Origin: Streptomyces amritsarensis
Lineage (GTDB): Bacteria; Actinomycetota; Actinomycetes; Streptomycetales; Streptomycetaceae
Assembly (NCBI RefSeq): GCF_001953875.1
Contig: NZ_MQUR01000004.1
Span: 1 to 64,000 of the forward strand
Direction: 5' to 3'
Length of the DNA: 64,000 nucleotides
Below, one piece after another: positions 49 to 17,486 of the stretch. The position numbers and the translations under genes are program-made. The notes under the pieces are model-generated. The model had not been told where the DNA came from, searched no databases, and was given only the letters and a program-made list of their open reading frames with translations. How positions within the stretch are numbered: position 1 is the stretch's first letter; the number at the start of each line of letters is the position of its first letter.

Positions 49-1326
49 TCAGGCGGTGATCCGGGTCTCGTCCGCGGCCGGAGATCCCTCCTCGGCGGTG
101 TCGTCGCCGCCGGGCATTTCCTTGATCTTGGCGACCGGCCCGCTGAGCAGGGTCAGGCCGCCGATGATGGTGACGGTGCCGGCCACCGCGAGGCCGCCGG
201 TCAGGCCGATCGCCTCGCCGAGTGCACCGCCGGCGAAGTAGCCGAGGGACAGGGCGCCGTACACCGCCGAGAGGGCGGTGCCGCTGACGCGGCCCATCTG
301 CTCGTTCGGGGTGACACCCTGCACCAGGCTGAGGACGTGGATGTCGAACATCGGGGACACGAAGCCGATGACGGCCTGGACCACGATCAGGCCGACGAAG
401 CCGCCGACCGCGCCGCCCGTCGGGACGAGGATGTAGCCGGCGCCGAGCACGACCGCGGTGATGACCAGCAGGCGGCCGACCGAGAGGCTCTTGGAGACGA
501 CCTCGGAGAGGACCGCGCCGACGATGACGAAGACCGACATGACGGCGAAGGCGATGCCGACCTGGCCGGGGCTGAGGTTCAGCTCCTTGTAGGCGTAGAC
601 GATCAGGATGGCGTCGCCCATCGCGGCACCGAGGTTGACCACGACGTTGGCGGTGAACAGGCCGCGCAGGATCGGGTTGCCGAAGAGGGTCTTCATGCCC
701 TCCCGCATCTCCGCCTTCGCGGAGGCCTTCCGCTCCTCGGTCCGCTCGCGCACGTCCCGGTGGCGGATGACCAGCAGGGCGATGAGCGAGATGAGGAAGG
801 TGAACGCGTCGGCGGTGATGGCGCGTGCGGCGCCGAGCAGCTGGATGAGCGCGCCACCGGCGCCGGCGCCTACCGCCTCGGCGACGCTGCGGCTGATCTG
901 GAGCTTGGTATTGCCCTCGATGAGGTTCTCGGTGCCGATGAGCTGGGGCAGCCAGGACTGGTAGGAGACCTCGAAGAAGGTGGTGAGGCAGCCGGTGATG
1001 CCGGCCACGATGAAGATATGCGCCATGGTGACGGAGTCGAGCGCGAACGCCAGCGGGATCGTGGCCAGGGCCAGGAAGCGGCCCAGGTCGGCGACGATCA
1101 TGACGGTGCGCCTCGAGACCCGGTCGGCCACCAGCCCTGCGATCGGGGCGAGCAGCAGGAAGGGGAGGAAGCGCAGCGCGCCGAGCACGCCGACCTCCAA
1201 GGCTCCGCCGTCCAGCACCACGACCGCGAGGGTCGGTAGCGCGAGAAGGGAGATCTTGTCGCCGAAGTTGCTGACGGTCTGCCCGAACCACAGGCGATTG
1301 AAATCGGAATGCCGACCGAGTGCCAT
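49..1326 (-). CDS. MFS transporter (DHA3/EntS-like exporter)
   Basis: This 425-residue membrane protein has about twelve hydrophobic segments, the normal size for a drug or siderophore exporter of the major facilitator superfamily. The first loop carries the MFS-type GLVADRVSRR motif near residue 65. The start is ATG at 1326, preceded by AAAAGGG at good spacing. It is the last gene of the leftward cluster unit. The 119-bp gap before it contains an 11-bp-period direct repeat (1386-1403), so it may have its own SARP-responsive promoter. Export of the cluster product is the likely role; the substrate is unknown. Confidence 0.85.
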   Translation of the reverse strand: MALGRHSDFNRLWFGQTVSNFGDKISLLALPTLAVVVLDGGALEVGVLGALRFLPFLLLAPIAGLVADRVSRRTVMIVADLGRFLALATIPLAFALDSVTMAHIFIVAGITGCLTTFFEVSYQSWLPQLIGTENLIEGNTKLQISRSVAEAVGAGAGGALIQLLGAARAITADAFTFLISLIALLVIRHRDVRERTEERKASAKAEMREGMKTLFGNPILRGLFTANVVVNLGAAMGDAILIVYAYKELNLSPGQVGIAFAVMSVFVIVGAVLSEVVSKSLSVGRLLVITAVVLGAGYILVPTGGAVGGFVGLIVVQAVIGFVSPMFDIHVLSLVQGVTPNEQMGRVSGTALSAVYGALSLGYFAGGALGEAIGLTGGLAVAGTVTIIGGLTLLSGPVAKIKEMPGGDDTAEEGSPAADETRITA

Positions 1327-1445: not shown

Positions 1446-2477
1446 TCAGCTGGAGAAGCGTGCGATGTCGGCGCTCTCGCGGGCGATCCCGGCGGCCACG
1501 GCGGGGCTCAGGGGCTCGGTCCCGGGGAAGGGCTCGACCTTGACCGGCGTCCCGCGGCGGCCGCCCGACCAGGTGCCGACGGCCAGGCCGTCGACCACCA
1601 CGGTGGCGCGGATCTGCCCGCCGCCGGGCCACACCCGGCGCTCGTGCTCGGCGGGCACCGAGAGGTCCCGGCTGCGATAGCCGACAAGGTAGTTGTCGTA
1701 GGCCGGCAGCAACCGCACGTCGGGTTCGCCGCGGACGGGCGGGGCGTCGGGGGCAATGTCCCGTACGGCGGCCCAGGCGTTTTTGCCGGCGGTGGTCTTC
1801 AGCCCCGACCAGTGGACGAAGTCGAGGGCGTCGCAGGGCCCGTGGGCCGATCGGTAGCGCCGGGCGAGTTCCCGTACGGCCGCTTCCCCGGTGTAGGGGA
1901 CGGGTCCGGTGTCGGGCAGCCAGTCGTCGAGGAGGACGAAGGTGGCCTCACCGTCGCGTTGCGGTCCGTGGCAGATCACGCCGGCCAGGGCCGCGCGGCG
2001 GATGAGGTGGAAGGCGGACTGCCCCTTCGGCTCGACGCCGAGGGTGGTGAGCCGGTCGGTGAGCCGGGCGCGGGTCAGCGGGCCCTCCGCGGCGATCGCG
2101 TCGGCGATGAGCCGCTCCGAGCGCGCGCACAGGGCCTCGTCCAGGCCGAGTTCGCGCAGGCGCCGGGCGGCGAGCGCGAGGTAGACGGGGCCGAAGAGGC
2201 CCAGCAGCCAGCGGGCGTCGGCGGCGGGCACCAGCTGGAGGGTGCCGCGCATGAACCAGCCGCGTACGGCCGTGCGTTCGATGTCGGTGGCCCGGCGGAC
2301 CGCCTCCTGTGTCAGCCCGCGGGCCCGCGCCCGCAGCCCGAGCTCCGCCGCGGGCAGGTCCTGGGCCTGGACGGCCAGCACCCGGTCCAGGACGGCGGCG
2401 ACGGAGTCCTCCCGGACCTCGCCCCCGATCGCCTGTGCGCGTGCCCTGAGCAGCCGTTCGGTCGTACGTCGTTCCAC
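1446..2477 (-). CDS. AlkZ-like HTH_42 winged-helix protein (putative DNA glycosylase)
   Basis: This 343-residue protein matches the HTH_42 winged-helix family (AlkX/YcaQ and AlkZ). AlkZ and relatives in antibiotic clusters are DNA glycosylases that remove bulky alkyl adducts and protect the producer. The Gln-x-Gln catalytic motif of the AlkZ branch is present as VQAQD, with Q37 and Q39 at the numbering I recall for AlkZ itself. The start is GTG at 2477, only 12 bp after the phosphopantetheinyl transferase stop, so the gene is probably co-transcribed with the cluster. A self-resistance role is inferred. HTH_42 proteins also occur outside clusters in actinomycetes, so a general repair role is the alternative. 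Confidence 0.8.
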   Translation of the reverse strand: MERRTTERLLRARAQAIGGEVREDSVAAVLDRVLAVQAQDLPAAELGLRARARGLTQEAVRRATDIERTAVRGWFMRGTLQLVPAADARWLLGLFGPVYLALAARRLRELGLDEALCARSERLIADAIAAEGPLTRARLTDRLTTLGVEPKGQSAFHLIRRAALAGVICHGPQRDGEATFVLLDDWLPDTGPVPYTGEAAVRELARRYRSAHGPCDALDFVHWSGLKTTAGKNAWAAVRDIAPDAPPVRGEPDVRLLPAYDNYLVGYRSRDLSVPAEHERRVWPGGGQIRATVVVDGLAVGTWSGGRRGTPVKVEPFPGTEPLSPAVAAGIARESADIARFSS

Positions 2478-2489
2478 GTGTCCAGTCTT

Positions 2490-3134
2490 TCAGCCGAGCA
2501 GCCGCAGCCGCATCTCCTCGCGGGCCGCCACACATCCGACGGCCTGCGCGCAGCCCCAGTCCAGCAGCCGCCAGCCGTGCCAGCGCGGCGGCTCCTGCCC
2601 GTACACGGGAACGTCGAGGCGGGCCGGCTCGTCGAGCGTGCCCGCCCCGACCTTGACCAGGGACTCCTTTCGTACCCACTGGCGCAGGAAGGCGCGCCGC
2701 GGGTGGGTGGCCGACCGCAGGGCGGCCAGTTCCTTCGCGGTGCAGACGGCCTCAGCCGTCCGCCAGTCCACGTCCGTGCCGTCGACGGCCTCCACGTCCA
2801 CGCCGACGGGGCCGTCGGCCGCGGCCGCCGCGACCCAGCCCCGGGCGTGCGCGAGGCTGACGGCGGTCGCGGGCGCCTCGACGAGCCGGGGCCTGCCGTG
2901 CGGCCGCTCGCAGGAGCCGCAGCTCTGAACGACGGTGAGGCTCTGCGCCGGGCGGCCCAGGAGCCGCCCGGCGCAGAGCCGGACCAGTGCGTGCGCGGCC
3001 AGGAAGTCGTCCCGGTCGGCGGCCGACCGGAGGGCGCCGGCGCGGTCCAGTTCGGTACGGGTCAGCAGCTCCCGTACGTCCCCGGCCGCGGCCAGCACCG
3101 CTCCGGTCGGCCCGGCCAGTGCGAGACCGGCCAT
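2490..3134 (-). CDS. Sfp-type 4'-phosphopantetheinyl transferase
   Basis: A 214-residue enzyme that would move phosphopantetheine from CoA to the carrier-protein serines of the two NRPS proteins. The Mg-binding GVDVE motif is at 111-115 (D113, E115), and the WVRKESLVK signature is at 153-161 (K156, E157, K161). Its ATG at 3134 overlaps the NRPS stop codon by one base (TGATG), which indicates translational coupling. The open frame continues upstream for more than 1,000 codons opposite the NRPS reading frame, but that part is a shadow. A dedicated transferase inside the cluster is common in streptomycetes. Confidence 0.93.
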   Translation of the reverse strand: MAGLALAGPTGAVLAAAGDVRELLTRTELDRAGALRSAADRDDFLAAHALVRLCAGRLLGRPAQSLTVVQSCGSCERPHGRPRLVEAPATAVSLAHARGWVAAAAADGPVGVDVEAVDGTDVDWRTAEAVCTAKELAALRSATHPRRAFLRQWVRKESLVKVGAGTLDEPARLDVPVYGQEPPRWHGWRLLDWGCAQAVGCVAAREEMRLRLLG

Positions 3135-6100
3135 CAGCGCCTGCGGCGCAGCACCGCGTAGTAGCCGGGCAGCCGCAGCGCGTCGGAGTCCGACCGGGGG
3201 TCGATGGCGTGGAGTTCTATCGCCTCGTCCTCGACGATCTCCCAGCCGTCCGCGCCGAAGGCCTCGGCCAGTTCGGGCCGGGTGAAGCGGTGCGAGTGCC
3301 GGACGCCGGCCGCCTCCAGCGGGCCGACCAGGTCCTCGGCGCGGCCCCGCTTGCCGCCCACGAAGCCCAGGTAGCCGAAGGAGTTGCTGGAGTAGTCGGG
3401 CTCGTGCACGATCAGTGTTCCCTCGTCGCCCAGCAGCCGGTCGGCGACCGCGGCGAGCCGGGCCCGGGCCTCGGTGTCCAGGACGTGGAAGACGCCGCGG
3501 ACGAAGATGTTGTAGGGCCCCTCCCCCAGGACGGCGGCCTGTTCGGCGTCGGTCATGTCGATCGCCAGGTAGTCGACGTTCGCCACGCCCTCCGCCTCGC
3601 GCTTGGCGTGGTCGATGGCGCTGGCGGAGACGTCGACGCCGACGACCCGCGGGTAGTGCGGGGCGAGTTCGCGGCTGTAGCGGCCGTTGCCGCAGCCGAG
3701 GTCGATGAGCGGCAGGTCGCCGCGGAAGTGGCGCTGCGCCTGGTCGAGGAGCCACTGGAACTCCTCGCCGCTGTCGGCGTCCCAGATGACGTCGCCGCCG
3801 CGGCCGGTGCGGCTGATGCCCGCCCAGTAGCGCTCCCAGGCGTCGCCGGTGTCGCGCTCCTCGGCCTTGGCCGCGCCGGCGCCGTCCGCGCCGGGCGGCG
3901 GGGAGTGGCGCTCCCAGGCCTCGTCCTCGCCGAGGGCCTCCAGCAGCGCCGTGAACTCCTCGAACATGGTGTCGATGAGGCCGTCGGGGTAGACGGCGGG
4001 CAGGAAGTCCCAGTTGAAGGTGAGTCCTTCGGGCTTCTCGAAGACCTGGAAGTCCAGGGAGACCTGGGGGGTCTGGGAGATGCCGTAGACCGGGGCGCCC
4101 AGCTCGGTCTCCTCGTACTGCGGCGGGTGGCCGGCCAGGCTGGTCATCACCACGGGCATGGCCGGGGCGAGGGAGCCGCGCAGCTTGGTCAGTTCGCGCA
4201 GGACCTGCACCCCGCTGAAGTAGCGGTGCTCCAGGTCGGCCCACAGGCGGCGCTGGACGGCCTGGGCGCGTCCGGCGAAGGTGGAGTCCTGCTGTTCGAC
4301 GGCGAGCAGCAGGGTGGTGGTGGTGTCCGCGAGCAGGGCGTTGACCTGGGGGTGCAGCGGGAGCCGGTTGAAGAGCGGGAAGTTGATGGTGAAGCGGGCC
4401 TGCCCGGAGGCCTTGCCGAGGATCTCGGCGTAGGCGGCGGCCAGCACTCCGGAGGGGGTCACCTCGCGGGCGTGCGCCCGCTCCTGGATCCGGGTCCACT
4501 GCTCGGGGGAGACGACGTGGCTGCGCCGTTCGAAGCGGACGGGCAGCTCGGGGGCGTCGGCCGGCCGCTCGGGCAGTTCGGGGGCGGGCGGGAGGGTGGC
4601 GAGGCGGTCGCGCCAGTACCACTCGGAGCGGCGGTAGATCTCGCTGTCGCGCAGCGAGTTGCCGATGGCGAGCACGTAGTCGCGGAAGGTCAGCTCCAGC
4701 GGGGCGAGTTCGGCGTCCGGTTCCACGTAGTAGGTGACCAGGTCGGGGATGAGGACCTGGAAGTAGCTCCAGGCGTCGGCGACGAGGAAGTCCAGCGAGA
4801 GGTGGATCCGGGCCCGTCCGCCGCCGAGCAGGCTGATCCGTACGTCGAACAGCGGCCAGGCGTCGGCGTCGAGCACCTGGTGGGACAGCCGCTCGCGCAG
4901 GTCGGCCAGTTCGGCCGCGCGGGTCTCCTCGTCGAGGCCGCCGAAGTCGGTGACGGGGATCTCGTAGTCCGGGACCTCCTCGAAGACCTGCTGGGTGCCG
5001 TTGGGCAGGACCCGGGTGCGCAGGGCGTCGTGGCGTTCGACGAGGCGGCGCCAGGCTCGCTCGAAGCGGGGCACGTCGAGCTTCTCGCTCTCCCACTCGA
5101 AGTAGCCGTGGCAACCGACGTTGCCGAGTTCCACGAGCCCGCCGCGGCCGATCCACAGCGCCTGCTGGCTCTCGGTCAGCGGGAACGGCTCGAAGCGGGC
5201 GGCCGGGTCGGGGACGATCGCCGGGAGTCCGCCGAAGGAGCCGCGGCCGCCCGCGCGTTCGGTGGTGACCAGGGTGGCGAGTTCGGCGACGGTGGGGCAG
5301 GTCGACAGGTCGGAGAGGCTCAGCTCGACGCCGTAGCGGCGGCGGATCTCGTCGATGAGCTGGAAGGCGAGCAGCGAATGGCCCCCCAGCTCGAAGAAGT
5401 TGTCGTGGATGCCGACGCCGTCGGTGCGGAACGCGTCGGCCCACAGCCGGCTCAGGGCGTCCTCGACCTCGTTGCGCGGCGCCTCGTAGCCGGCGCCGAC
5501 GCCGTCGCGGCCTTCGGGGGGCTGGGGCAGGCTGCGGCGGTCGACCTTGCCGTTGGGCAGCCGCGGGAGGGAGGGCAGCACGACGACGGCGGCGGGGACC
5601 ATGTAGTAGGGCAGGGTGCGGGCGACTTCGGCGCGCACCGCGGCCGAGTCGGGTTCGGCCCCGTCGGCCGGGGACACGTAGGCGACGAGCCGCTTGTCGC
5701 CGGGGCCGCGCTCCTGGGTGACGACGACGGCCTCGGCGATGTCGTCGAGGCGTGCGATGTGCGTCTCGACCTCGCCGAGCTCGACGCGGAAGCCGCGGAT
5801 CTTGACCTGGGAGTCGGAGCGGCCGAGGAGCTCGACGGCGCCGTCCTCGCGGCGGCGGGCGAGGTCGCCGGTGTCGTAGAGCACCGGGTGCGGGTCGCCC
5901 TCGACGAAGTTGGGGAGGAACTTGGCGGCGGTGAGCTCGGGGCGGCCGTGGTATCCGGCCGCGACGCCGGCGCCGGAGACGTGCAGCCGGCCGACCTCGC
6001 CCTCGGGGACCGGGCGGCCTTCCTCGTCGAGGAGGTGGACGCGGAGGTTGGCGATGGGGACGCCGACCGGGACCTGGCGGGTGGCGCGGACCTCCTCGGA

Positions 6101-7072
6101 GGTGGCCTGGCTGGTGAAGTCGGTGCCGGTGCCGAGGTCGAGGCAGGACAGCACGTTGGTGGTCTCGGTGGTGCCGTAGGTCATCACCACGCGGAAGGGG
6201 GTGTCGACGGGCGGCCAGCTGTGGACGCGCTCGGCCGTGGTCACCAGGATCCGCAGCGCCGTGTCCGCCGGCCACCGCAGGCCCCACACGGACTCGGCCA
6301 GCGCGGCCACCAGCATCGTGTGGGTGATGCCCTCGCCGGCCAGCCAGTCGCGGATCTGCTCGGGGGTCTGCGCCTGGCCCGCCTCGGGGATGTGGATCGC
6401 GGCGCCGGCCGGCAGGTAGGCGAGCCACTCCATGATCTGGACGGCGAAGCCGGGGGTGGACATCCAGGAGGCGCGGTCGCCGGGCAGGACCCCGTAGGCG
6501 CGGGTGGTCCAGTGGACCAGGTTGGTGAGCGCGCCGTGCCGCTCCAGGACGGCCTTGGGGGTGCCGGTGGAGCCGGAGGTGTAGATGAGGTGGCTGACGG
6601 TGTCGGGGCGGGTCACGGACGCGGGCGCGGTGTCCGGCATCCCCTGGCCGGCGGTGGCGACCTCGGCACGCGGGACGTCCTCGGGTATCCGGCGGGCGAG
6701 TTCGGCCGGGGTGAGCACGAGCAGCGGGTCGGCGTCGGCGATCATCGCGGCGAGCCGGTCGTCGGGGTTGACCGGGTCGAGGGCGACGATCGCGGCGCCC
6801 GTCTTGAGGATCGCCACGGAGCCCAGGACGTATTCGGCGCTGCGCGGGTAGCAGAGGCCGACCCTGGTGCCGGGTCCGGCGCCGCGGGCGATCAGCGCGT
6901 GCGCCAGGCGGTTGGTGGCGGCTTCCAGTTCGGCGTAGGTCCAGGTGCGGTCGCCCTGCGCGAGGGCGGTGGCCGCGGGGGTGCGGGCGGCCTGTCCGGC
7001 GAGGAGTTCCGGGTACCCGGTCGTGGGGAACGCGGCGTCCGAACGGTTGAAGTCGACGAGTGCGGTGGTCAC
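3134..7072 (-). CDS. NRPS: adenylation, carrier, heterocyclisation and methyltransferase domains (A-PCP-Cy-MT)
   Basis: The protein has 1312 residues. The A domain spans about 15-515, with TSGSTG at 165-170, YDTGD at 399-403 and the NGK lysine K509. The carrier domain has GGHS with S566. The condensation-type domain (about 620-1045) is a true Cy domain: it opens with FPLTESQQALW, has RHDALR, and replaces HHxxxDG with D761-x4-D766-x2-S769. A class I methyltransferase domain (about 1065-1312) has DLGCGNGR at 1124. The A domain is unusual: the position that normally holds the amine-binding Asp (235 in GrsA numbering) is A210, and the usual GGE is TTAE. It may therefore activate an acid without an alpha-amine. 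The start is GTG at 7072, 15 bp after the P450. No carrier follows Cy, so the acceptor must be in trans, probably on the 610-residue NRPS. Confidence 0.93.
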   Translation of the reverse strand: MTTALVDFNRSDAAFPTTGYPELLAGQAARTPAATALAQGDRTWTYAELEAATNRLAHALIARGAGPGTRVGLCYPRSAEYVLGSVAILKTGAAIVALDPVNPDDRLAAMIADADPLLVLTPAELARRIPEDVPRAEVATAGQGMPDTAPASVTRPDTVSHLIYTSGSTGTPKAVLERHGALTNLVHWTTRAYGVLPGDRASWMSTPGFAVQIMEWLAYLPAGAAIHIPEAGQAQTPEQIRDWLAGEGITHTMLVAALAESVWGLRWPADTALRILVTTAERVHSWPPVDTPFRVVMTYGTTETTNVLSCLDLGTGTDFTSQATSEEVRATRQVPVGVPIANLRVHLLDEEGRPVPEGEVGRLHVSGAGVAAGYHGRPELTAAKFLPNFVEGDPHPVLYDTGDLARRREDGAVELLGRSDSQVKIRGFRVELGEVETHIARLDDIAEAVVVTQERGPGDKRLVAYVSPADGAEPDSAAVRAEVARTLPYYMVPAAVVVLPSLPRLPNGKVDRRSLPQPPEGRDGVGAGYEAPRNEVEDALSRLWADAFRTDGVGIHDNFFELGGHSLLAFQLIDEIRRRYGVELSLSDLSTCPTVAELATLVTTERAGGRGSFGGLPAIVPDPAARFEPFPLTESQQALWIGRGGLVELGNVGCHGYFEWESEKLDVPRFERAWRRLVERHDALRTRVLPNGTQQVFEEVPDYEIPVTDFGGLDEETRAAELADLRERLSHQVLDADAWPLFDVRISLLGGGRARIHLSLDFLVADAWSYFQVLIPDLVTYYVEPDAELAPLELTFRDYVLAIGNSLRDSEIYRRSEWYWRDRLATLPPAPELPERPADAPELPVRFERRSHVVSPEQWTRIQERAHAREVTPSGVLAAAYAEILGKASGQARFTINFPLFNRLPLHPQVNALLADTTTTLLLAVEQQDSTFAGRAQAVQRRLWADLEHRYFSGVQVLRELTKLRGSLAPAMPVVMTSLAGHPPQYEETELGAPVYGISQTPQVSLDFQVFEKPEGLTFNWDFLPAVYPDGLIDTMFEEFTALLEALGEDEAWERHSPPPGADGAGAAKAEERDTGDAWERYWAGISRTGRGGDVIWDADSGEEFQWLLDQAQRHFRGDLPLIDLGCGNGRYSRELAPHYPRVVGVDVSASAIDHAKREAEGVANVDYLAIDMTDAEQAAVLGEGPYNIFVRGVFHVLDTEARARLAAVADRLLGDEGTLIVHEPDYSSNSFGYLGFVGGKRGRAEDLVGPLEAAGVRHSHRFTRPELAEAFGADGWEIVEDEAIELHAIDPRSDSDALRLPGYYAVLRRRR

Positions 7073-7087
7073 AGTACGGGCCCTTTC

Positions 7088-8302
7088 TTACTTCGCGAAG
7101 GCTCGGCTGCGCAGCAGCCGCACGGGGAGACTGTTGATCCCCCAGGTGAAGTTGGACGAGTTGAAGGTGGCGGGACCGGTCAGTTCGAACCCGTCCAGTA
7201 CGGCGAGCATCTCGGTGAGCAAGGCGCCGAGTTCGAAGCGGGCGAGGCGGGCGCCGAGGCAGAGGTGGCGGCCGTGCCCGAAGGCGACGTGCCGGTTGGG
7301 GCGGCGGTCGACGCGGAAGGAGTGCGGGTCGGCGAAGACGTCCTCGTCCCGGTTGGCCGAGACGTTCCACAGCGTCACGCGGGCGCCTGCGGCGACGGGG
7401 ATCCCGTTGATCTCGGTGTCGCGGGCGGCGGTGCGCAGGGCGTGCACCCCGGGCGTGGTCCAGCGCAGGATCTCCTCGACGGCCGGGGCGATGCCGTCGG
7501 GTCCGAGGCCGCGCAGCAGCCGCCACTGGTCGGGGTGCTCGGCGAACATGTGGACCGCGCCGGCCGCCGAGTAGCGGGTGGTCTCGTTGGCTCCGGACAG
7601 CACGCCGTTGAGGTTGAAGACGATCTCGTGGTCGCTGAGCGGGCGTTCGCTGCCGTCGCCCTCGTCCACGAGGGTGTCGTGGGCGATCTGGCTGACCAGG
7701 TCGTCGCCGGGGCGGGCCCGGCGTTCGGCGAGCAGCTCGATGAAGTAGAGGAAGATCTCCGAGTGGGCGCTGCTGCGCACCGCCTCGTCCGGGGAGTCGA
7801 AGGCGTCGGTGGTCAGGGCGCCGATCCAGGCCCAGTCGGGGCGCGGGATGCCCAGGATGGCGCAGACCACCCGGTTGGGCAGCTGCTTGGCGAGGTCGAT
7901 GAAGTCCAGCTCGTCGCGTTCGGCGGCCTCGGTGACGAGGTCGGCGACGACCTGTTCGACGAGGGCTTCGAGGCGGGGCATCTGCTGCGGGCCGAAGGCC
8001 TGTCCGAGGGCCCGCTTGAGGCGGGTGTGGTGCGGGACGTCGGAGACGATGAGCATGCGCTGGGCGACCGCGGCGACGGCGGCGGGGTCGCTGCCCAGCC
8101 GCATGCCGCGGGCCGACAGGAAGGTGTCGCTGTCGGCGTAGACCTTCATGATGTCGCGGTGCCGGCTGAGCGCCCAGAAGCCGCCGTCGTCGCTGCCGGG
8201 CTCGGGGTGCCAGTGGACCGGCGAGTTGGCGCGCAGCCAGGTGAACGTCGGCCAGAAGTCGTTGCGGCCGAAGGGGCCCGGGTCGAGCAGGTCGATCTCC
8301 AT
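7088..8302 (-). CDS. Cytochrome P450 (probable carrier-bound amino-acid hydroxylase)
   Basis: A 404-residue bacterial P450. The I-helix oxygen-activation motif is GANETT (237-242), the K-helix ExxR is E277-R280, and the haem loop is FGHGRHLCLG with ligand C348. The ATG at 8302 lies two bases after the MbtH stop and is preceded by GAGGAG. Its place between an A-PCP/MbtH/thioesterase set and the second NRPS parallels the P450s that beta-hydroxylate carrier-bound amino acids in nikkomycin and aminocoumarin pathways. Beta-hydroxylation here is inferred from this context. Needed ferredoxin partners are not in the window. Confidence 0.93.
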   Translation of the reverse strand: MEIDLLDPGPFGRNDFWPTFTWLRANSPVHWHPEPGSDDGGFWALSRHRDIMKVYADSDTFLSARGMRLGSDPAAVAAVAQRMLIVSDVPHHTRLKRALGQAFGPQQMPRLEALVEQVVADLVTEAAERDELDFIDLAKQLPNRVVCAILGIPRPDWAWIGALTTDAFDSPDEAVRSSAHSEIFLYFIELLAERRARPGDDLVSQIAHDTLVDEGDGSERPLSDHEIVFNLNGVLSGANETTRYSAAGAVHMFAEHPDQWRLLRGLGPDGIAPAVEEILRWTTPGVHALRTAARDTEINGIPVAAGARVTLWNVSANRDEDVFADPHSFRVDRRPNRHVAFGHGRHLCLGARLARFELGALLTEMLAVLDGFELTGPATFNSSNFTWGINSLPVRLLRSRAFAK

Positions 8303-8523: not shown

Positions 8524-9270
8524 TCAGGCGGTCGGGGTGAGGGCCGCGCCCTCGCCCCGCAGCAGGGCGCTCAGGTGGTCCAGTACGGGCTGGGGGCGGC
8601 GCAGTACGGCGTGGTGTCCGCCGGTGGTGGTGTGCCGGGTGAAGCCGGCGGTGGTGACCGCCGCCCAGCCGTCCAGGTCGGCCGAGCTGACGGTCTCGTC
8701 GCCGTCGGCGCCCCAGGCGTGCACGGGTACGGACAGGCGGGTGCCGGGCTGGTGGACGTAGCTCAAGGACAGCTGGGCGTCCTTGCGGAGCATTCCGACC
8801 ATCAGGGCGCGGGTGTCCTCGTCGAGCAGCCGGGGGTCGAGGTCGGCGGTGTCGAAGAGCTTGTCCAGCTCCTCTCCGTCGTCGACGATGCCGCGGCCCG
8901 CTCCGGTCCAGTGGCCGGGGGCCCGGCAGCCGCTGACCACCAGGGCGCGCGGGGTGACCCGGCGGGAGACCTCGTAGCCGAGGAGGCCGCCGAAGCTGTG
9001 GCCGAAGACGATCAGCGGCCGGTTCCCGACGGTGGACACCAGTTCGGCCGCGATGGCCTCGACGGCCTCGTCGAAGGTGTCCGGCATCGGCTCGCGCCAG
9101 CGGTTCTCCCGGCCCGGGAGCTGTACGCCGTACACCTGCGCGGTGCCGTCCAGCGCGGGCTGCCAGGCGCGGAACTGCTGGCAGCCGGCCCCGGCGGGGG
9201 GCAGGCACAGCAGCACGGGCAGGGCCGGGTCGGCGGGGTCCGGCGCCCAGGTGGAGATCCAGGTTCCCAT
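8524..9270 (-). CDS. Type II thioesterase (alpha/beta hydrolase)
   Basis: A 248-residue stand-alone thioesterase. The nucleophile elbow is GHSFGG near residue 91, the oxyanion-side motif LPPAGAG is near residue 24, and GGHHAV near the C-terminus supplies the catalytic His. Stand-alone thioesterases clear wrongly loaded carriers. In the nikkomycin-type pathway a comparable enzyme releases the hydroxylated amino acid. It starts three bases after the A-PCP gene ends, so both are in one transcript. No integrated thioesterase domain exists in either NRPS, so this enzyme may also perform final release. Confidence 0.9.
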   Translation of the reverse strand: MGTWISTWAPDPADPALPVLLCLPPAGAGCQQFRAWQPALDGTAQVYGVQLPGRENRWREPMPDTFDEAVEAIAAELVSTVGNRPLIVFGHSFGGLLGYEVSRRVTPRALVVSGCRAPGHWTGAGRGIVDDGEELDKLFDTADLDPRLLDEDTRALMVGMLRKDAQLSLSYVHQPGTRLSVPVHAWGADGDETVSSADLDGWAAVTTAGFTRHTTTGGHHAVLRRPQPVLDHLSALLRGEGAALTPTA

Positions 9271-9273
9271 GGC

Positions 9274-11106
9274 CTACGCCCCTTCGGCGGCGGCGGCCGC
9301 ATCCGCTGCGGGCCCGCCCTGTTCGGCGGCGAGCCGGTCGATCTCGGCGGCGACGTCGGCGACCGTCGGCCGGGCCAGCAGCGCGCCCAGGCCGACGCGC
9401 AGTCCGGTGGCGCGGCGCAGCTCGGAGACCGCGCGGGCGGCGGCCAGGGAGTGGCCGCCCAGGTCGAAGAAGTCCGACTCGGGGCCGGGGACCTCGGTGG
9501 CGAGCACCTCGGCCCACACGGTCATCACGGTGCGCTCGCTGGCGCTCACCGTGCCGTCCCCGGCCGCGCCGGGTCCGTCACCGTCCTCCGGCTGCTCCAG
9601 GGCCCGGGCCAGCGCGGCGCGGTCGGCCTTTCCGGTGGTCAGGGTCGGGATCCGGTCCAGTACCCGCACGGTGGCCGGTACCGCCGCGGCGGGCAGCTGC
9701 TTGCGGCAGCGCTCCACGACCCGGGTGGCGAGACCGGCCGGGTCGGCGACGCCGGGTGCCGCGACGACGGCGAGGCCGAGGGTCTGGCCGGCCGCCAGCG
9801 GGCAGCAGGCGGCGGCGACGACCTCGGGGAGTTCGGCGGCGACGCGTTCCACCTCGCCGAGCTCGATGCGGTGGCCGCGGACCTTCACCTGGTCGTCCCG
9901 TCGGCCCCGGTACTCCAGTTCGCCGCCGTCGCGGCGGATCACCACGTCGCCGGTGCGGTACATGCGGGTGCCGCCGCCCTGGAACGGGTCGGGCAGGAAG
10001 CGGCTCGCGGTGAGTCCGGGACGGCCCCGGTAGCCGCGGGCGACAGCCGGCCCGCCGAGGTAGAGCTCGCCCTCGGTGCCCGCGGGCACCGGCCGCAGCT
10101 CCTCGTCCAGTACGTAGGCCCGGTAGCCGGGCAGCGGTCGTCCGATGCTGGTCACGTCGTCCCCTCGTCGGCTGTCGGCCCAGGTGGCGGCGATGGTCAC
10201 CTCCGTCGGCCCGTACACGTTGAGCAGCCGGCGGCCCTGGGCGAACCGTTCGGCGAGCGCGGCCGGGCAGGCCTCCCCGGCGACGACGACCACCTCGGCG
10301 GAGTCGAGCCCGGCGCCGTGGGCGGCGAGCAGCGACGGGGTGAGGGAGACGGTGCGCAGTCCGGCGGGCAGCGGCTCGCGGCCCTCCGCGGCGGCCTGCC
10401 GCAGTCCGTCCAGGGAGAGGTCGGTCAGCGCCACCCCCTGGCCGTGGACGAGGTAGAGCAGGGTGCACCAGAGCCAGCCGTCGAAGGCGGGCGAGACGGC
10501 GTTGAGTCCGAGTCCGCCGGAGGGCAGGCCGAGTCCGGAGAGGGCTTCGACGAAGGTGTCGAGGCCGCGGTAGGTGACCTCGACGCCCTTGGGGCGGCCG
10601 GTGGTTCCGGAGGTGTAGATGAGGTAGGCGCAGCTGTCGGGGGCGGGCGGGGACACGGCGAGCGCGCCGGGGGCGCCGCGGCGGACCTCGCGGGGGGTCA
10701 GCAGGACGGTCCCGCCCGTCTCCAGGCCGGCGGGCACGCCGGTGGCGACGAGGACCACGGCCCCGGCGTCGCGCAGTACGCCGCCGAGGCGTTCCACGGG
10801 GTGTCCGGGGTCCAGCGGTACGGCGGTCCCGCCCAGGCTCCAGACGGCGAGCAGGGCGGGCACGCTCTCGCGGGAGCGGCCCAGCAGCAGCCCCACCGAG
10901 GTCTCCGGGCCGACTCCGGCGCGGGTGAGGGCGGCGGCGTAGCGGGCGGTGCGGGCGGTCAGTGCCGCGTAGGTGAGGTTGCCGTCCACGGCCTTGACCG
11001 CGGTCTCGTTGGGCTGCTCGCGGGTCCACCGTTCCAGGCGGGCGAACAGCGGCGGGAGCCCGCCCGGGGCGTTCGCCCCGGCCGGCCCGGCATGGGGCTC
11101 GGTCAT
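9274..11106 (-). CDS. NRPS didomain: adenylation plus carrier (A-PCP)
   Basis: A 610-residue protein made of one A domain (about 20-500; TSGTTG 165-170, YRTGD 383-387, TGK lysine K493) and one carrier domain (GGHS, S553). The canonical amine-binding Asp is present (D209). The pocket residues I align are D209, G210, W213, S254, V274, A276, V297, I305 and A306. These suggest a bulky, probably aromatic alpha-amino acid and do not match Cys, Ser or Thr. Tryptophan fits the nearby halogenase. The ATG at 11106 overlaps the dehydrogenase stop by four bases (ATGA), with GAGAGGA upstream. It probably supplies the carrier-bound amino acid to the P450 and then to the Cy domain of the larger NRPS. Confidence 0.92.
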   Translation of the reverse strand: MTEPHAGPAGANAPGGLPPLFARLERWTREQPNETAVKAVDGNLTYAALTARTARYAAALTRAGVGPETSVGLLLGRSRESVPALLAVWSLGGTAVPLDPGHPVERLGGVLRDAGAVVLVATGVPAGLETGGTVLLTPREVRRGAPGALAVSPPAPDSCAYLIYTSGTTGRPKGVEVTYRGLDTFVEALSGLGLPSGGLGLNAVSPAFDGWLWCTLLYLVHGQGVALTDLSLDGLRQAAAEGREPLPAGLRTVSLTPSLLAAHGAGLDSAEVVVVAGEACPAALAERFAQGRRLLNVYGPTEVTIAATWADSRRGDDVTSIGRPLPGYRAYVLDEELRPVPAGTEGELYLGGPAVARGYRGRPGLTASRFLPDPFQGGGTRMYRTGDVVIRRDGGELEYRGRRDDQVKVRGHRIELGEVERVAAELPEVVAAACCPLAAGQTLGLAVVAAPGVADPAGLATRVVERCRKQLPAAAVPATVRVLDRIPTLTTGKADRAALARALEQPEDGDGPGAAGDGTVSASERTVMTVWAEVLATEVPGPESDFFDLGGHSLAAARAVSELRRATGLRVGLGALLARPTVADVAAEIDRLAAEQGGPAADAAAAAEGA

Positions 11107-12686
11107 CCGTGGTTCCTCTCGGTGTCCGCGGGGCGGGCGGCCTCGGTGGCCCGCAGCCGCGGGCCGACCACCTGGCCGCCCTCGCCCTGCGGGAGCTGCA
11201 TCGACTTGGTCTCCAGGAAGGACTCCAGCCCGGCCGTGCCGCACTCGCGTCCGATCCCGGACTGCTTGAACCCGCCGAACGGCGCGGCCGGGTTGAACTG
11301 GCCGCCGTTGACGTCGACCAGGCCGGAGCGGAAGCGGCGCGCCGTCTGCTCGGCGCGGGCGTCGTCGCCGGACCAGACCGCGCCGTGCAGCCCGTAGCGG
11401 GTGCCGTTGACGATCCGGACGGCCTGCTCCTCGTCGTCGTAGGGGATGACGGACAGCACCGGCCCGAAGATCTCCTCCTGGGCGATCGTGGTGAGCGGGT
11501 CGACGTCGGCGAAGACCGTCGGCCGGACGTAGTAGCCGGTGTCCAGGCCGTCGGGCCGGTCGGGGCCGCCGTGGACCAGGCGGGCTCCGCCCTCCTCGGC
11601 GCCGCGGCGGATGTATCCGGTGACGCGGGCGTGCGCGGCCGCGGACACCAGCGGGCCGAGGTCCGTCGCGGGGTCGCGCGGGTCGCCGGTGACGTAGCCG
11701 TCCATGGCCCGGATCGCGAGCTCCACCGCCTCGTCCTGGCGCTCGCGCGGCACCAGCAGCCGGCTCCACTGCAGGCAGGTCTGGCCGGTGTTGAAGAGCA
11801 TCTGGTCGACGGTGGCGGCGACGGCCGGGGCCAGCTCGGCGTCGTCGAGGACGAGACTGGCGTTCTTGCCGCCCAGTTCGAGGTGGACGCGCTTGATCCG
11901 GTCGGCGCCGAGGGCGGCGACGTCGCGCCCGGCCCGGGTGGAACCGGTCAGGGAGACCACGTCGACGAGCGGGTGGGTGACCAGTGCCGTGCCGACGGTG
12001 TCGCCGGTGCCGACGACCATGTTGAAGACGCCCGGCGGCAGGTCGGCCTCGGCGATGGCCTCGGCGAGCAGCCGGGCGTGCAGCGGGGTGATCTCGCTCG
12101 GCTTGTGCACCACGGTGCATCCGGCGGCCAGGGCCGGGAGGATCTTCTGCACGGTGAGCAGCAGCGGGGTGTTCCACGGCGTGATGCAGGCGGCCACTCC
12201 GGCGGCCTCGCGCACGACGAGCGAGTGGCCGACGCGCTCCTCGAAGGCGTAGGAGGCGGCGGTCTCGACGCAGTGCGCGGCCATGCCGAGGGACAGTCCG
12301 ACGTGGGTGTGGCGGGCCATCCGGGCGGGCGCGCCGACCTCGGCGGTGATGACCTCGGCGAAGCGTTCGGCCCGTACCTCCATGGCCTCGACGACCCTGC
12401 GCAGCAGGGCGGTCCGTTCGCGCAGCGGGGTGGCCGCCCAGCCGTCGAAGGCCGCGGCGGCCGCCCGGGCCGCGAGGTCGGCGTCCCGGGCGGTGCCGGC
12501 GGGCACCGTGGCCAGGGCGCGCTCGGTGGCGGGGTCGGTCACGACGAGGCGGCCGTCGGCCTCGGAGGGGACCCAGGCGCCGCCGATCCACTGGTCGGTG
12601 TAACGGGGCGGCAGCGGGGCCGCGTTCGGTTCGCCGCCGGGCGGTCTGGAGTCCTGCGGCGCGGTCGGCACGGTCAGCACGGTCAC
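11103..12686 (-). CDS. NAD(P)-dependent aldehyde dehydrogenase
   Basis: A 527-residue aldehyde dehydrogenase, slightly longer than usual because of a 25-residue N-terminal extension. The ALDH-type ITPWNTP is at 168-174, LELGGK supplies the general base E270, and FNTGQTC supplies the catalytic C304. The start is GTG at 12686 after GAGGA. It is the first enzyme gene after the SARP gene and is translationally coupled to the A-PCP gene, so it very likely makes or processes a precursor. One possibility is oxidation of an aldehyde to the acid that the Asp-less A domain activates. The substrate cannot be read from the sequence. Confidence 0.9.
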   Translation of the reverse strand: MTVLTVPTAPQDSRPPGGEPNAAPLPPRYTDQWIGGAWVPSEADGRLVVTDPATERALATVPAGTARDADLAARAAAAAFDGWAATPLRERTALLRRVVEAMEVRAERFAEVITAEVGAPARMARHTHVGLSLGMAAHCVETAASYAFEERVGHSLVVREAAGVAACITPWNTPLLLTVQKILPALAAGCTVVHKPSEITPLHARLLAEAIAEADLPPGVFNMVVGTGDTVGTALVTHPLVDVVSLTGSTRAGRDVAALGADRIKRVHLELGGKNASLVLDDAELAPAVAATVDQMLFNTGQTCLQWSRLLVPRERQDEAVELAIRAMDGYVTGDPRDPATDLGPLVSAAAHARVTGYIRRGAEEGGARLVHGGPDRPDGLDTGYYVRPTVFADVDPLTTIAQEEIFGPVLSVIPYDDEEQAVRIVNGTRYGLHGAVWSGDDARAEQTARRFRSGLVDVNGGQFNPAAPFGGFKQSGIGRECGTAGLESFLETKSMQLPQGEGGQVVGPRLRATEAARPADTERNHG

Positions 12687-12741: not shown

Positions 12742-13740
12742 TCACGCGGTCGCGGGGTCCGCGGCGCGGGCCAGGACGGCCGGGGCCCGGTTGTCGGGCC
12801 TGGCCCTGCGGACCTGGCGGGCCAGGGCGGAGGTGCGGACCTCCGCGCTCCACGGAGGGGTTGCGGGCTGGCGGCCGGCGGGCCGCAGCGCGCGGACCGT
12901 GGCGGGGGCGCCGCCGACGGAGGCCGGGGCCTGGGCGGGAGCGGCGGCGCGGGCGGCGGACGGGATCAGGGTGCGCAGCAGCCGCTGGGTCTCCTGGCCG
13001 GGCGCCACGGCCAGCTCGTCGCGCATCCGGCGGGCGCACAACTCGTACCAGCGTCGTACGCAGGCCAGTTCGCCGCGGCGGCCGTGTGCGGCCATCAGAG
13101 CGCGGTAGGTCTCCTCGTGGTGGCGGTCGATCTCCAGCGTCCGCTTGCAGAGCTCGATCAGTTCCACGAAGTCCTCGCGGTCCTCGGCGTCGGCGCGCAG
13201 CACGCCCAGGGCCCGCAGGACCAGGGCCCTGAGGTATTCGCGCTGTTCGACGACCCAGTCGGCGCTCTCGCCACGCAGGAACTCGCCGCCGTACAGGGCG
13301 ATCGCGGCCCGCAGCCGGGTCCGGGCGAGCACGGTGTCGCCGGCGCCGGCGGCGCGCAGGCCGGCGTGCACGAGCTCCTGGAAGCGGTCGAGGTCGCACC
13401 ACAGGCCGGTGACGTGCAGGACGTAGCCGAAGTCGCGGTAGACCAGCCGGATCCCGGAGTCTCCGGGGCGGTCGGGGTGGGCGTCGAGGACCTGTCGCAG
13501 GGCGTGGGCGGCGACCTTGAGCGAGCTGCCCGCGGTGCTGTCGGTGCCGGGCCACAGCGACTCGTAGAGCCGGTCGCGGGTGAGCATCTGGCCGCGGTGG
13601 ACGACCAGGTACTGGAAGAGGCCGCGGGCCTTGCCGGCCCGCCAGCGCCGTACGGGGGTGCCGTTCACGGTCAGCTCGAAATCGCCCAGGAAGCGGACGC
13701 GTACCGCCGGCCCCGCTGTCTCGGTCGCTGCGGTGGTCAT
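12742..13740 (-). CDS. SARP-family transcriptional activator
   Basis: A 332-residue regulator with an OmpR-like winged-helix DNA-binding domain (about 15-110) followed by a bacterial transcriptional activation domain (about 118-260, with the typical FLRGE). The C-terminal 70 residues are a Pro/Ala/Arg-rich low-complexity tail. It lacks the NB-ARC/TPR parts, so it is a small SARP like ActII-ORF4 or RedD. It begins the leftward unit, and the space upstream carries heptamer repeats on both strands. It is the likely pathway-specific activator of both units, perhaps including its own gene. Confidence 0.92.
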   Translation of the reverse strand: MTTAATETAGPAVRVRFLGDFELTVNGTPVRRWRAGKARGLFQYLVVHRGQMLTRDRLYESLWPGTDSTAGSSLKVAAHALRQVLDAHPDRPGDSGIRLVYRDFGYVLHVTGLWCDLDRFQELVHAGLRAAGAGDTVLARTRLRAAIALYGGEFLRGESADWVVEQREYLRALVLRALGVLRADAEDREDFVELIELCKRTLEIDRHHEETYRALMAAHGRRGELACVRRWYELCARRMRDELAVAPGQETQRLLRTLIPSAARAAAPAQAPASVGGAPATVRALRPAGRQPATPPWSAEVRTSALARQVRRARPDNRAPAVLARAADPATA

Positions 13741-13837: not shown

Positions 13838-15517
<1,680 letters not shown>

Positions 15518-15601: not shown

Positions 15602-16222
15602 ATGCCCCACCGCTCCGCGCCCCATCCCGCCGCGCCGGACGAGTCGGCCAGAGACCGCCGCGCGGATCTGCGGCCCTTCATGGCCGCCTTCCCCAGCGGG
15701 GTGTCCATCGTCACCACTCTGGATTCGGACACTGTGCCCCACGGCCTGACCTGCAGTTCCGTCGCGAGCGTCGCCCTCGATCCGCCCACGCTGGTGGTGT
15801 GCGTACGGGCGGCGAGCCCGACGCTCGCGGTGGTCCTCGACCAGGGGGCCTTCGCTCTGAACCTGCTGCACGAGCGGGCCCGCGGTGCCTCCGACCTGTT
15901 CGCCTCGGGCGCCCCCGACCGCTTCGAACGCGTCGAGTGGCGGCTGCCGCTGGGCGCGGGCGGGCCGCACCTGACCGCGGACGCCCATGCCGTCGCGGAC
16001 TGCGCCGTGGTCAGGACCATAGGCTTCGGGGACCACACGGCCGTGTTCGCCGAGGTCCACCGGGTGACCGTACGGGAGGATCCGCAGCCCCTGCTGTACG
16101 GTCTGCGCCGTTACGCCCAGTGGTCGCAGGCGGCCGCGGCCCCGCCGCCGGCCGCCCGCCTCGACCCGTCCGCCGCGCTGCGCCCCGGCGCGCCCGAAGG
16201 AGGCACCCGTGTCGTCCGCTGA
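15602..16222 (+). CDS. Flavin reductase (FMN-binding split-barrel family)
   Basis: A 206-residue protein of the HpaC/DIM6-type flavin reductase family. These enzymes use NAD(P)H to give free reduced flavin to a partner. The early FPSGVSIVTT and the CSSVASVALDPPTLVVCV stretch are typical of the family. The ATG at 15602 follows AGGAG. Its place directly after the halogenase makes it the probable FADH2 supplier. The C-terminal 30 residues are Ala/Pro rich. Confidence 0.88.
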   Translation: MPHRSAPHPAAPDESARDRRADLRPFMAAFPSGVSIVTTLDSDTVPHGLTCSSVASVALDPPTLVVCVRAASPTLAVVLDQGAFALNLLHERARGASDLFASGAPDRFERVEWRLPLGAGGPHLTADAHAVADCAVVRTIGFGDHTAVFAEVHRVTVREDPQPLLYGLRRYAQWSQAAAAPPPAARLDPSAALRPGAPEGGTRVVR

Positions 16223-17486
16223 CCCGCTGCCCGCCCTGCTGGTCGCCGTCCCGGCGGTCATCCTCGCCTGCCAGGTCGGAGCCTCCGTCTGCCGCCGGTT
16301 CGGCCAGCCCCCGGTGGTGGGCGAGATCGCCACCGGCATCCTGCTGGGCCCGTCCCTGCTGGGCTGGATCTGGCCACAGGCCCAGCACGCGCTGTTCCCG
16401 GCGTCCGTGTTGCCGTACACCTCGGTGCTCGGCCAGCTCGGGCTGCTCGCCTTCATGTTCCTGGTCGGACTGGAGCTCGACCTGAAAAACCTGCGCGGTC
16501 ACACCCGCGTCGCGGTCGCCGTGAGCCAGGCCGGGATGCTGCTGCCGCTGGCCCTGGGCGCGCTCCTCGCGGTCGCGATGTACGACGGCTTCGCCCCGGA
16601 CGGCGTGGGCCGGACGCCGTTCATCCTGTTCATGTCGGTGGCCATGAGCATCACGGCGTTCCCGGTCCTGGCCCGGATCCTCATCGACCGGGGCCTGTAC
16701 GGGACGCCGCTCGGGGCGCTCGCCATGGCCTGCGCGGCCGTGGACGATGTCGTCGCGTGGTGCCTGCTCGCCCTGGTGGTGGCCCTCTCCTCGGCCGGGT
16801 CCCCGGTGGAGGCGGCCACCACGGCCGGGCTCGCCGTGGCCTTCACGCTGGTCATGCTGTACGCGGTGCGGCCGCTGCTGGCCCGCTGGGCGGCCCGCGC
16901 CGACCGGGCCGGGGACGCGGCGGTCCTGGTGGCGCTGTTCAGCGGGCTGAGCGTGTCCGCGCTGGCCACCGACCTGATCGGCGTGCACGCGCTGTTCGGC
17001 GCGTTCCTGTTCGGTGTGGTCACCCCGCGCACCGGAGGGCGCATCGAGGTCTCGGCGGCCCGGCTGCGCGCCTTCACGGTGCCCGTGCTGCTGCCGCTGT
17101 TCTTCGTGCACACGGGCCTGCGCACCGACATCGGCGGACTGACGGCCTCGCCCGAGCTGTGGCTGTGGACGGGCGCGATCCTGGCCGTCGCCTTCCTCGG
17201 CAAGTGGGGCGGCGCCTCGGGGGCGGCGCGCGCCTGTGGAAGACCGTGGCGGGAGGCCCTGTCGATCGGCGCGCTGATGAACTGCCGCGGGCTGACCGAG
17301 CTGGTGGTGCTCAACGTCGGACTGGAACTGGGCGTCATCGGACCGCAGTTGTTCACCATGCTCGTCCTCATGGCACTGGTGACGACAGCCATCACCAGCC
17401 CGGCGCTGACCCGGCTGCGCGCCAAGGAGGTGCCCGCGCCGGACGGGGTGCCGGCGCCGCCCGAGGGCGCGCTCTCCCGCCCCTGA
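16209..17486 (+). CDS. Cation:proton antiporter (CPA2 family)
   Basis: A 425-residue membrane protein with about twelve segments, typical of the KefB/NapA-type sodium (or potassium)/proton exchanger family. A conserved Asp pair occurs in AAVDDVVAW (near 180). Its GTG start at 16209 overlaps the reductase end by 14 bp after GGAGG, so the two are co-translated. Antiporters of this type occur in other halogenated peptide clusters such as those for glycopeptides. Its job here, whether ion balance or transport, is not known. Confidence 0.88.
   Translation: MSSADPLPALLVAVPAVILACQVGASVCRRFGQPPVVGEIATGILLGPSLLGWIWPQAQHALFPASVLPYTSVLGQLGLLAFMFLVGLELDLKNLRGHTRVAVAVSQAGMLLPLALGALLAVAMYDGFAPDGVGRTPFILFMSVAMSITAFPVLARILIDRGLYGTPLGALAMACAAVDDVVAWCLLALVVALSSAGSPVEAATTAGLAVAFTLVMLYAVRPLLARWAARADRAGDAAVLVALFSGLSVSALATDLIGVHALFGAFLFGVVTPRTGGRIEVSAARLRAFTVPVLLPLFFVHTGLRTDIGGLTASPELWLWTGAILAVAFLGKWGGASGAARACGRPWREALSIGALMNCRGLTELVVLNVGLELGVIGPQLFTMLVLMALVTTAITSPALTRLRAKEVPAPDGVPAPPEGALSRP

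Follow-up and report, generated by a model that had tools for sequence, protein, structure and literature searches.

An A-PCP-Cy-MT Protein with an Asp-less Adenylation Domain as the Probable Starter Module of a Tambromycin-Type Assembly Line

Introduction

Tambromycin (JBIR-126) and JBIR-34/35 are described as sharing chlorinated indole and methyloxazoline moieties, and AlkZ-like (AZL) proteins are encoded in the clusters of both (PMC9040887). According to the published account of its distribution, the tambromycin cluster occurs in 46 Streptomyces genomes, ten of them without a PPTase gene; the same source gives an [M+H]+ of 536.1907 for tambromycin A and the formula C20H23ClN4O5 for tambromycin B (PMC8466323). 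Lysine feeding is reported to have tied the compound to its cluster (PMC10206073), and strain H27-S2 is reported to carry a cluster 96% similar to that of JBIR-126 (PMC12451607). JBIR-34 is described as having alanine and serine where tambromycin has a pyrroline amino acid and alpha-methylserine. The alpha-methylserine module of the JBIR-34/35 pathway is FmoA3, whose recognition residues are given as A688, N730 and S760 (PMC11253843).

Here we analyze a nonribosomal peptide synthetase (NRPS) of Streptomyces amritsarensis, encoded at 3134-7072 of a 64,000-nucleotide stretch of DNA (the window). We conclude that it is most probably the starter module of an assembly line of the tambromycin/JBIR-34/35 type, on which it would load a chloroindole acid that its Cy domain joins to alpha-methylserine.

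Results

The A-PCP-Cy-MT Protein and Its Neighbors

The genes around the NRPS, with the basis for each name, are as follows.

49-1326, minus strand: MFS-type transporter (named from its translation; kept beside the cluster in relatives)
1446-2477, minus strand: AlkZ-like DNA glycosylase (Pfam PF06224)
2490-3137, minus strand: 4'-phosphopantetheinyl transferase (PPTase), ACPS family (Pfam PF01648)
3134-7072, minus strand: NRPS, A-PCP-Cy-MT, with an Asp-less A domain, a terminal Cy domain and a C-terminal SAM methyltransferase (Pfam and motifs)
7088-8302, minus strand: cytochrome P450 that probably beta-hydroxylates tryptophan on a PCP (closest solved structures)
8524-9270, minus strand: type II thioesterase (Pfam PF00975)
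9274-11106, minus strand: stand-alone A-PCP, Asp kept, FDGWLW pocket (Pfam and A-domain alignment)
11103-12686, minus strand: aldehyde dehydrogenase (Pfam PF00171)
12742-13740, minus strand: SARP-type regulator (BTAD and Trans_reg_C)
13916-15517, plus strand: flavin-dependent tryptophan halogenase, 6-halogenase-like (closest solved structures)
15602-16222, plus strand: flavin reductase (Pfam PF01613)
16209-17486, plus strand: antiporter-like membrane protein (named from its translation; kept beside the cluster in relatives)

The NRPS is a single open frame of 1312 amino acids with a GTG start, in which Pfam places AMP-binding at 26-375, AMP-binding_C at 434-509, PP-binding at 539-602, Condensation at 662-1047 and Methyltransf_25 at 1123-1218. 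Ala210, within TPGFAVQIMEW, aligns with Asp235 of a GrsA segment used as the ruler, and VTTAER stands where A domains usually have GGE-type letters. The Cy signature DxxxxDxxS is present as D761-x4-D766-xx-S769. By motif we also found T977 and D1007, which we take to be the catalytic Thr and Asp of the Cy domain; such a pair is described as important for cyclodehydration (PMC9547227). Pfam and alignment thus agree with the original prediction on the domain order, on Ala210 at the Asp235 position, on TTAE in place of GGE and on D761/D766/S769. NCBIfam gave the protein no specific name (E 1e-10). Of the 58 matches listed in its own genome, no other is full-length, and a close match to its Cy region was seen in 6 of 150 sampled genomes of the genus (its own included; one match partial, at a contig end).

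Among solved structures, the P450 was closest to 4l0e (E 4.5e-87), presumably P450sky, with CYP125MRCA (8vxg, 2.4e-84) nearly as close and 3mgx, which we take to be OxyD, at 3.8e-61. The halogenase matched the tryptophan 6-halogenases 6ul2, 8rs4, 7cu0 and 6h43 at 903-897 bits and the 7-halogenase RebH at 872 bits; NCBIfam returned no family at E 1e-10 for the halogenase or the thioesterase. The stand-alone A-PCP foreseen by the original prediction is indeed present, and its FDGWLW pocket presumably represents a Trp-like code. With an AlkZ-like glycosylase among the cluster's genes, its product may be one that damages DNA.

The Other Half of the Cluster

The window begins at the first base of its contig (C176). 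On a Streptomyces virginiae contig, the end of another contig of the same genome, C205, maps to position 55033 and the window start to 55074, in the same direction. Since these positions nearly meet, we conclude that C205 and the window contig abut, with about 40 bases missing. C205 carries genes for a Cy-A-PCP, a threonine-aldolase-like enzyme (GntG family aldolase in NCBIfam, scoring 332.7 bits where the cut-off is 230), a lone C domain, a C-A-PCP and a C-A-PCP-TE, and also the following regulator.

L045:13595-15571, on C205: regulator with BTAD and NB-ARC domains

An SHMT-like gene adjoins the Cy-A-PCP; its Pfam assignment (PF00464) comes from the S. virginiae copy, because the cut between the fetched stretches L045 and L046 splits the genome's own. 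Elsewhere on C205 (L046:2936-5274) lie two adjacent acyl-CoA-dehydrogenase-like proteins, one of them without Pfam matches for the N and middle domains.

The Cy-A-PCP of C205 matched FmoA3 (6lta) with 1150 bits over 1085 residues. In an alignment with hand-counted positions, A688, N730 and S760 are kept in this copy and in those of S. virginiae, L031, L033, L037, L038 and Rhizohabitans. Of the 31 loci queried, 12 gave a match of at least 50%, and the six remaining ones of these 12, all fused proteins, differ at the three residues. The best reading of these alignments is that the cluster has an FmoA3-like, putative alpha-methylserine acceptor module. The Cy domain therefore lacks a downstream carrier, as had been claimed, only within its own polypeptide, C205 supplying a Cy-A-PCP for the cluster. 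The stand-alone A-PCP is probably not the partner carrier. Together with its companions, a P450 and a type II thioesterase, it makes up the set used for beta-hydroxytryptophan in echinomycin biosynthesis; the FmoA3-like module is the likelier partner.

A Cluster of the Tambromycin Kind

Several features described for tambromycin- or JBIR-34/35-type clusters recur here: a tryptophan halogenase with a flavin reductase; an SHMT-like enzyme (PF00464), a putative source of alpha-methylserine; an FmoA3-like Cy-A-PCP with A688/N730/S760 on C205; and the AlkZ-like protein at 1446-2477. The locus of strain H27-S2 (L020) encodes an NRPS 92% identical to that of the window, and the cluster copy of S. virginiae, measured between limits of our choosing, is about 41.7 kb long, against 42,431 bp reported for MIBiG entry BGC0001368 (tambromycin, JBIR-126). 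We saw no PPTase match beside L023, L024, L025, L026 and L028, among other related loci, and the gene is likewise described as missing from some tambromycin genomes. This gene content firmly predicts a tambromycin-type cluster and makes tambromycin itself the likely product. We hold the claim at "tambromycin-type" because the reference was judged by its published description, the synteny with S. virginiae, the FmoA3 chain and the H27-S2 report.

The reported masses are consistent with this assignment. In the one kind of assembly calculated, chloroindole-3-carboxylic acid plus O, CH2, two alpha-methylserines and lysine minus 2 H, less 4 H2O, gives the reported [M+H]+ of 536.1907 for tambromycin A, and the same assembly with one alpha-methylserine gives C20H23ClN4O5, the formula of tambromycin B. 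The balance fails without the O or without the CH2 and fits a single cyclodehydration, implying that one methyl and one oxygen are added to the chloroindole acid. The MT domain is the obvious source of the methyl; for the oxygen on the indole we found no gene. The published formula of tambromycin C (PMC8466323) exceeds that of A (C24H30ClN5O7) by C11H20N2O3S, which by our arithmetic equals pantetheine minus water; tambromycin C is perhaps a pantetheine thioester or adduct.

The A-Domain Code Travels with the Halogenase Route

We aligned five homologues and scanned genome contigs with this alignment and the peptide patterns VQIMEW[LM] and CHGYFEW, which yielded 28 related loci, all of which were used. 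Automatic A-domain alignment misplaced positions 278, 299 and 301, so we used motif-anchored positions instead, which give AVMAVTTNVK for the window NRPS. The code [A/G]VMAVTTN[V/A]K recurs in 23 of the 28 loci, as does the combination of Ala or Gly at position 235 with TTAER. This share is biased upward, since VQIMEW[LM] spans two of the ten code positions and thus favored loci with the V and M of the code; position 235 and TTAER lie outside the pattern. The combination occurs in Streptomyces, Frankia, Rhizohabitans, Planomonospora, Kibdelosporangium and a MAG, suggesting that it is kept more than chance would allow. The other five loci have the codes GLVARAVVVK (four) or AIQPFTFVTK (one).

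The two groups also differ in what accompanies the code. Within the 23 code-class loci, the MT is fused in 21 (L034 is truncated where its contig stops, and L035 lacks an MT); 22 have a P450 relative, 20 a Trp-type A-PCP, 21 a thioesterase and 19 a halogenase. In the five other-code loci, MT, P450, Trp-type A-PCP and halogenase were each found in none, with a weak thioesterase match (35%) in two and a weak aldehyde dehydrogenase match (28-29%) in three. The code class therefore goes together with the halogenase/P450/MT route. At whole-genome scale, P450 relatives (E 1e-80) were present in all three code-class genomes checked, for L035 on another contig, and in none of three others. A halogenase relative (E 1e-60) was found in four of six genomes (L022, L030, L035 and L039), a check that left out L042 and L025; L039 is a counter-example, having a 70% halogenase relative in its genome and an NRPS with another code. 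The main support for our assignment (the FmoA3-like partner, synteny, cluster content and mass) is independent of the bias in the scan pattern. In the literature that we consulted, we saw no substrate assignment for [A/G]VMAVTTN[V/A]K, and our analysis proposes one.

L039, L040, L041, L043 and L044 (Lentzea, Kribbella and Streptomyces sp. HM190) encode A-PCP-Cy-A-PCP proteins with other Asp-less codes, and neither halogenase nor P450 was seen within these loci. Judging from their sequences, they probably start from different acids and use a different amino acid as acceptor.

Which Cy Domain Closes the Ring

The pathway has two Cy domains, the terminal one of the starter protein and that of the FmoA3-like module, and both keep DxxxxDxxS and the Thr/Asp pair. 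One division of labor, compatible with the starter-module explanation, is that the terminal, donor Cy forms only the amide and the FmoA3-like Cy closes the ring. The mass fit to a single cyclodehydration suits this arrangement, and the Cy of the preceding module, FmoA2, reportedly forms the amide in the JBIR-34/35 pathway, leaving ring formation to FmoA3. Two observations argue against it. The Thr/Asp pair of the terminal Cy is intact in all 27 rows covering the site (L029 and L034 had no coverage). Moreover, in Rhizohabitans arisaemae (L051:11072-13582) and the groundwater MAG L033 (11744-14365, minus strand) only a C-lobe remnant of a Cy precedes the alpha-methylserine A-PCP: D-x4-D / DxxxxDxxS, PVVxTS and QTPQV are absent while the alpha-methylserine pocket is kept. 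On balance we give amide formation alone by the terminal Cy slightly less than an even chance.

The remnants suggest, conversely, that ring closure too may be a task of the terminal Cy; in Rhizohabitans and L033 it retains all three motifs, and no other intact Cy was seen in the cluster stretches that we read. An SHMT relative (60%) is present in Rhizohabitans as well. In S. hygroscopicus (L031), Cys replaces the final Ser of DxxxxDxxS in the second Cy. A tree of 26 Cy rows (the two of the window pathway, the terminal Cy domains from 15 of the 28 related loci, three FmoA3-type and six other Cy domains) grouped the FmoA3-type Cy (four rows) with the fused Cy of Lentzea and HM190 (98/96), apart from a clade of 12 terminal Cy rows (100/99). 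It is a tentative and rather unlikely possibility that the terminal Cy is a true bifunctional catalyst, making both amide and methyloxazoline across a protein boundary, with the FmoA3-like Cy an auxiliary or decaying duplicate. Alternatively, the Rhizohabitans and L033 relatives may make an open product. These natural single-Cy relatives could settle which Cy makes the methyloxazoline ring.

Other Acceptors and Other Acids

In a rival reading, the Cy would couple its acyl group to beta-hydroxytryptophan on the neighboring A-PCP, giving a 5-(chloroindolyl)oxazoline of the kind in pimprinine- or streptochlorin-like compounds. The genes for the A-PCP, P450 and thioesterase are indeed neighbors of the NRPS gene and share its strand, and beta-hydroxytryptophan would in principle be a legitimate Cy acceptor. 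Against this, the cluster has an SHMT and an acceptor module of its own, the FmoA3-like one. In all six relatives with an A-PCP after the Cy in the same chain (L035, L039, L040, L041, L043 and L044), the A domain is FmoA3-type-like (53-56%), with differing pocket residues, and no Trp-type A-PCP was detected in these loci. For the tentative streptochlorin region, the published account lists halogenase, Na/H transporter, decarboxylase-like and dehydrogenase-like genes and, in that listing, names no NRPS (PMC10127220). We consider this acceptor very unlikely; a pimprinine/streptochlorin-type indolyl-oxazole pathway was dropped once the C205 half of the cluster had been found.

The fused relatives had in turn seemed to offer proof of an alpha-methylserine acceptor, an argument weakened by their second-A pockets: Leu/Asn/Ala in L039, L040, L041 and L043, Ile/Asn/Gly in L044 and Leu/Gly/Ser in L035. 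They would indicate only the type of module that follows this Cy.

A short hydroxy or keto acid, in place of an indole acid, is a very unlikely substrate of the A domain. A domains for hydroxy and keto acids are described with residues at 235 that are small and neutral or hydrophobic (PMC11253843), but Pfam finds no ketoreductase in the NRPS, the code is found together with the halogenase and P450 route from tryptophan, and a chlorinated indole acid agrees with the mass of tambromycin.

Discussion

The domains, their conservation, the cluster content and the synteny were read directly from the DNA, and from these we infer the substrates, the order of steps, the site of methylation and the division of tasks between the two Cy domains. 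In the route that we propose, the halogenase and flavin reductase would yield 6-chlorotryptophan, which would be loaded onto the stand-alone A-PCP, beta-hydroxylated by the P450 and released by the thioesterase. The resulting beta-hydroxychlorotryptophan would be split by the threonine-aldolase-like enzyme to chloroindole-3-carbaldehyde, and the aldehyde dehydrogenase would oxidize this to chloroindole-3-carboxylic acid. This acid, which may have gained its hydroxyl by then, would be loaded by the Asp-less A domain onto the PCP of the same protein, and the C-terminal MT would add the methyl group. The SHMT would supply alpha-methylserine, held on the separate FmoA3-like Cy-A-PCP; the terminal Cy would couple the chloroindole acid to it, the methyloxazoline would be closed, and the C-A-PCP and then the C-A-PCP-TE would complete the peptide.

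The aldolase step is the weakest of the route. A region of about 60 kb surrounding the cluster in Rhizohabitans gave no aldolase match at E 1e-8 and no flavin reductase match either; the aldolase matches in L031 and L037 reach only 30-31%, and our literature search found nothing linking an aldolase with tambromycin.

The original prediction thus made a sound observation and got the chemistry partly right. A donor very likely without an alpha-amine, and an acceptor amino acid on another protein, are what our reading of the cluster supports. Its claim to novelty is not upheld: it knew of no characterized pathway of this kind, and the surroundings match those described for tambromycin/JBIR-126 and JBIR-34/35 (PMC9040887, PMC8466323, PMC12451607).

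Comparison with known adenylation domains bears on the starter acid. The aryl-acid A domains of the DhbE type lack Asp235, as does the one studied here, whose substrate would likewise have no alpha-amine. They differ in having Asn235, in place of which the 23 code-class loci all have Ala or Gly, and in their A5 motif, where the window NRPS has MTYGTTETTN. The account of McyG indicates that substitution at Asp235 need not exclude an amino acid substrate, and the loss of this residue also fits hydroxy or keto acids.

Echinomycin biosynthesis offers the closest parallel for the tryptophan branch: Qui18, Qui15 and Qui14 are described as a stand-alone A-PCP, a P450 and a type II thioesterase for beta-hydroxytryptophan (PMC3578932), the same set as here. 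There a tryptophan dioxygenase acts next, whereas we propose an aldolase and an aldehyde dehydrogenase. For the acceptor branch, the SHMT-like FmoH of the fmo cluster is said to make alpha-methylserine for JBIR-34/35, and an SHMT-like enzyme is encoded here as well. The kind of pathway is therefore already known and the NRPS is an ordinary member of its family; its puzzling A-PCP-Cy-MT order becomes a placed step of the pathway described for tambromycin and JBIR-34/35.
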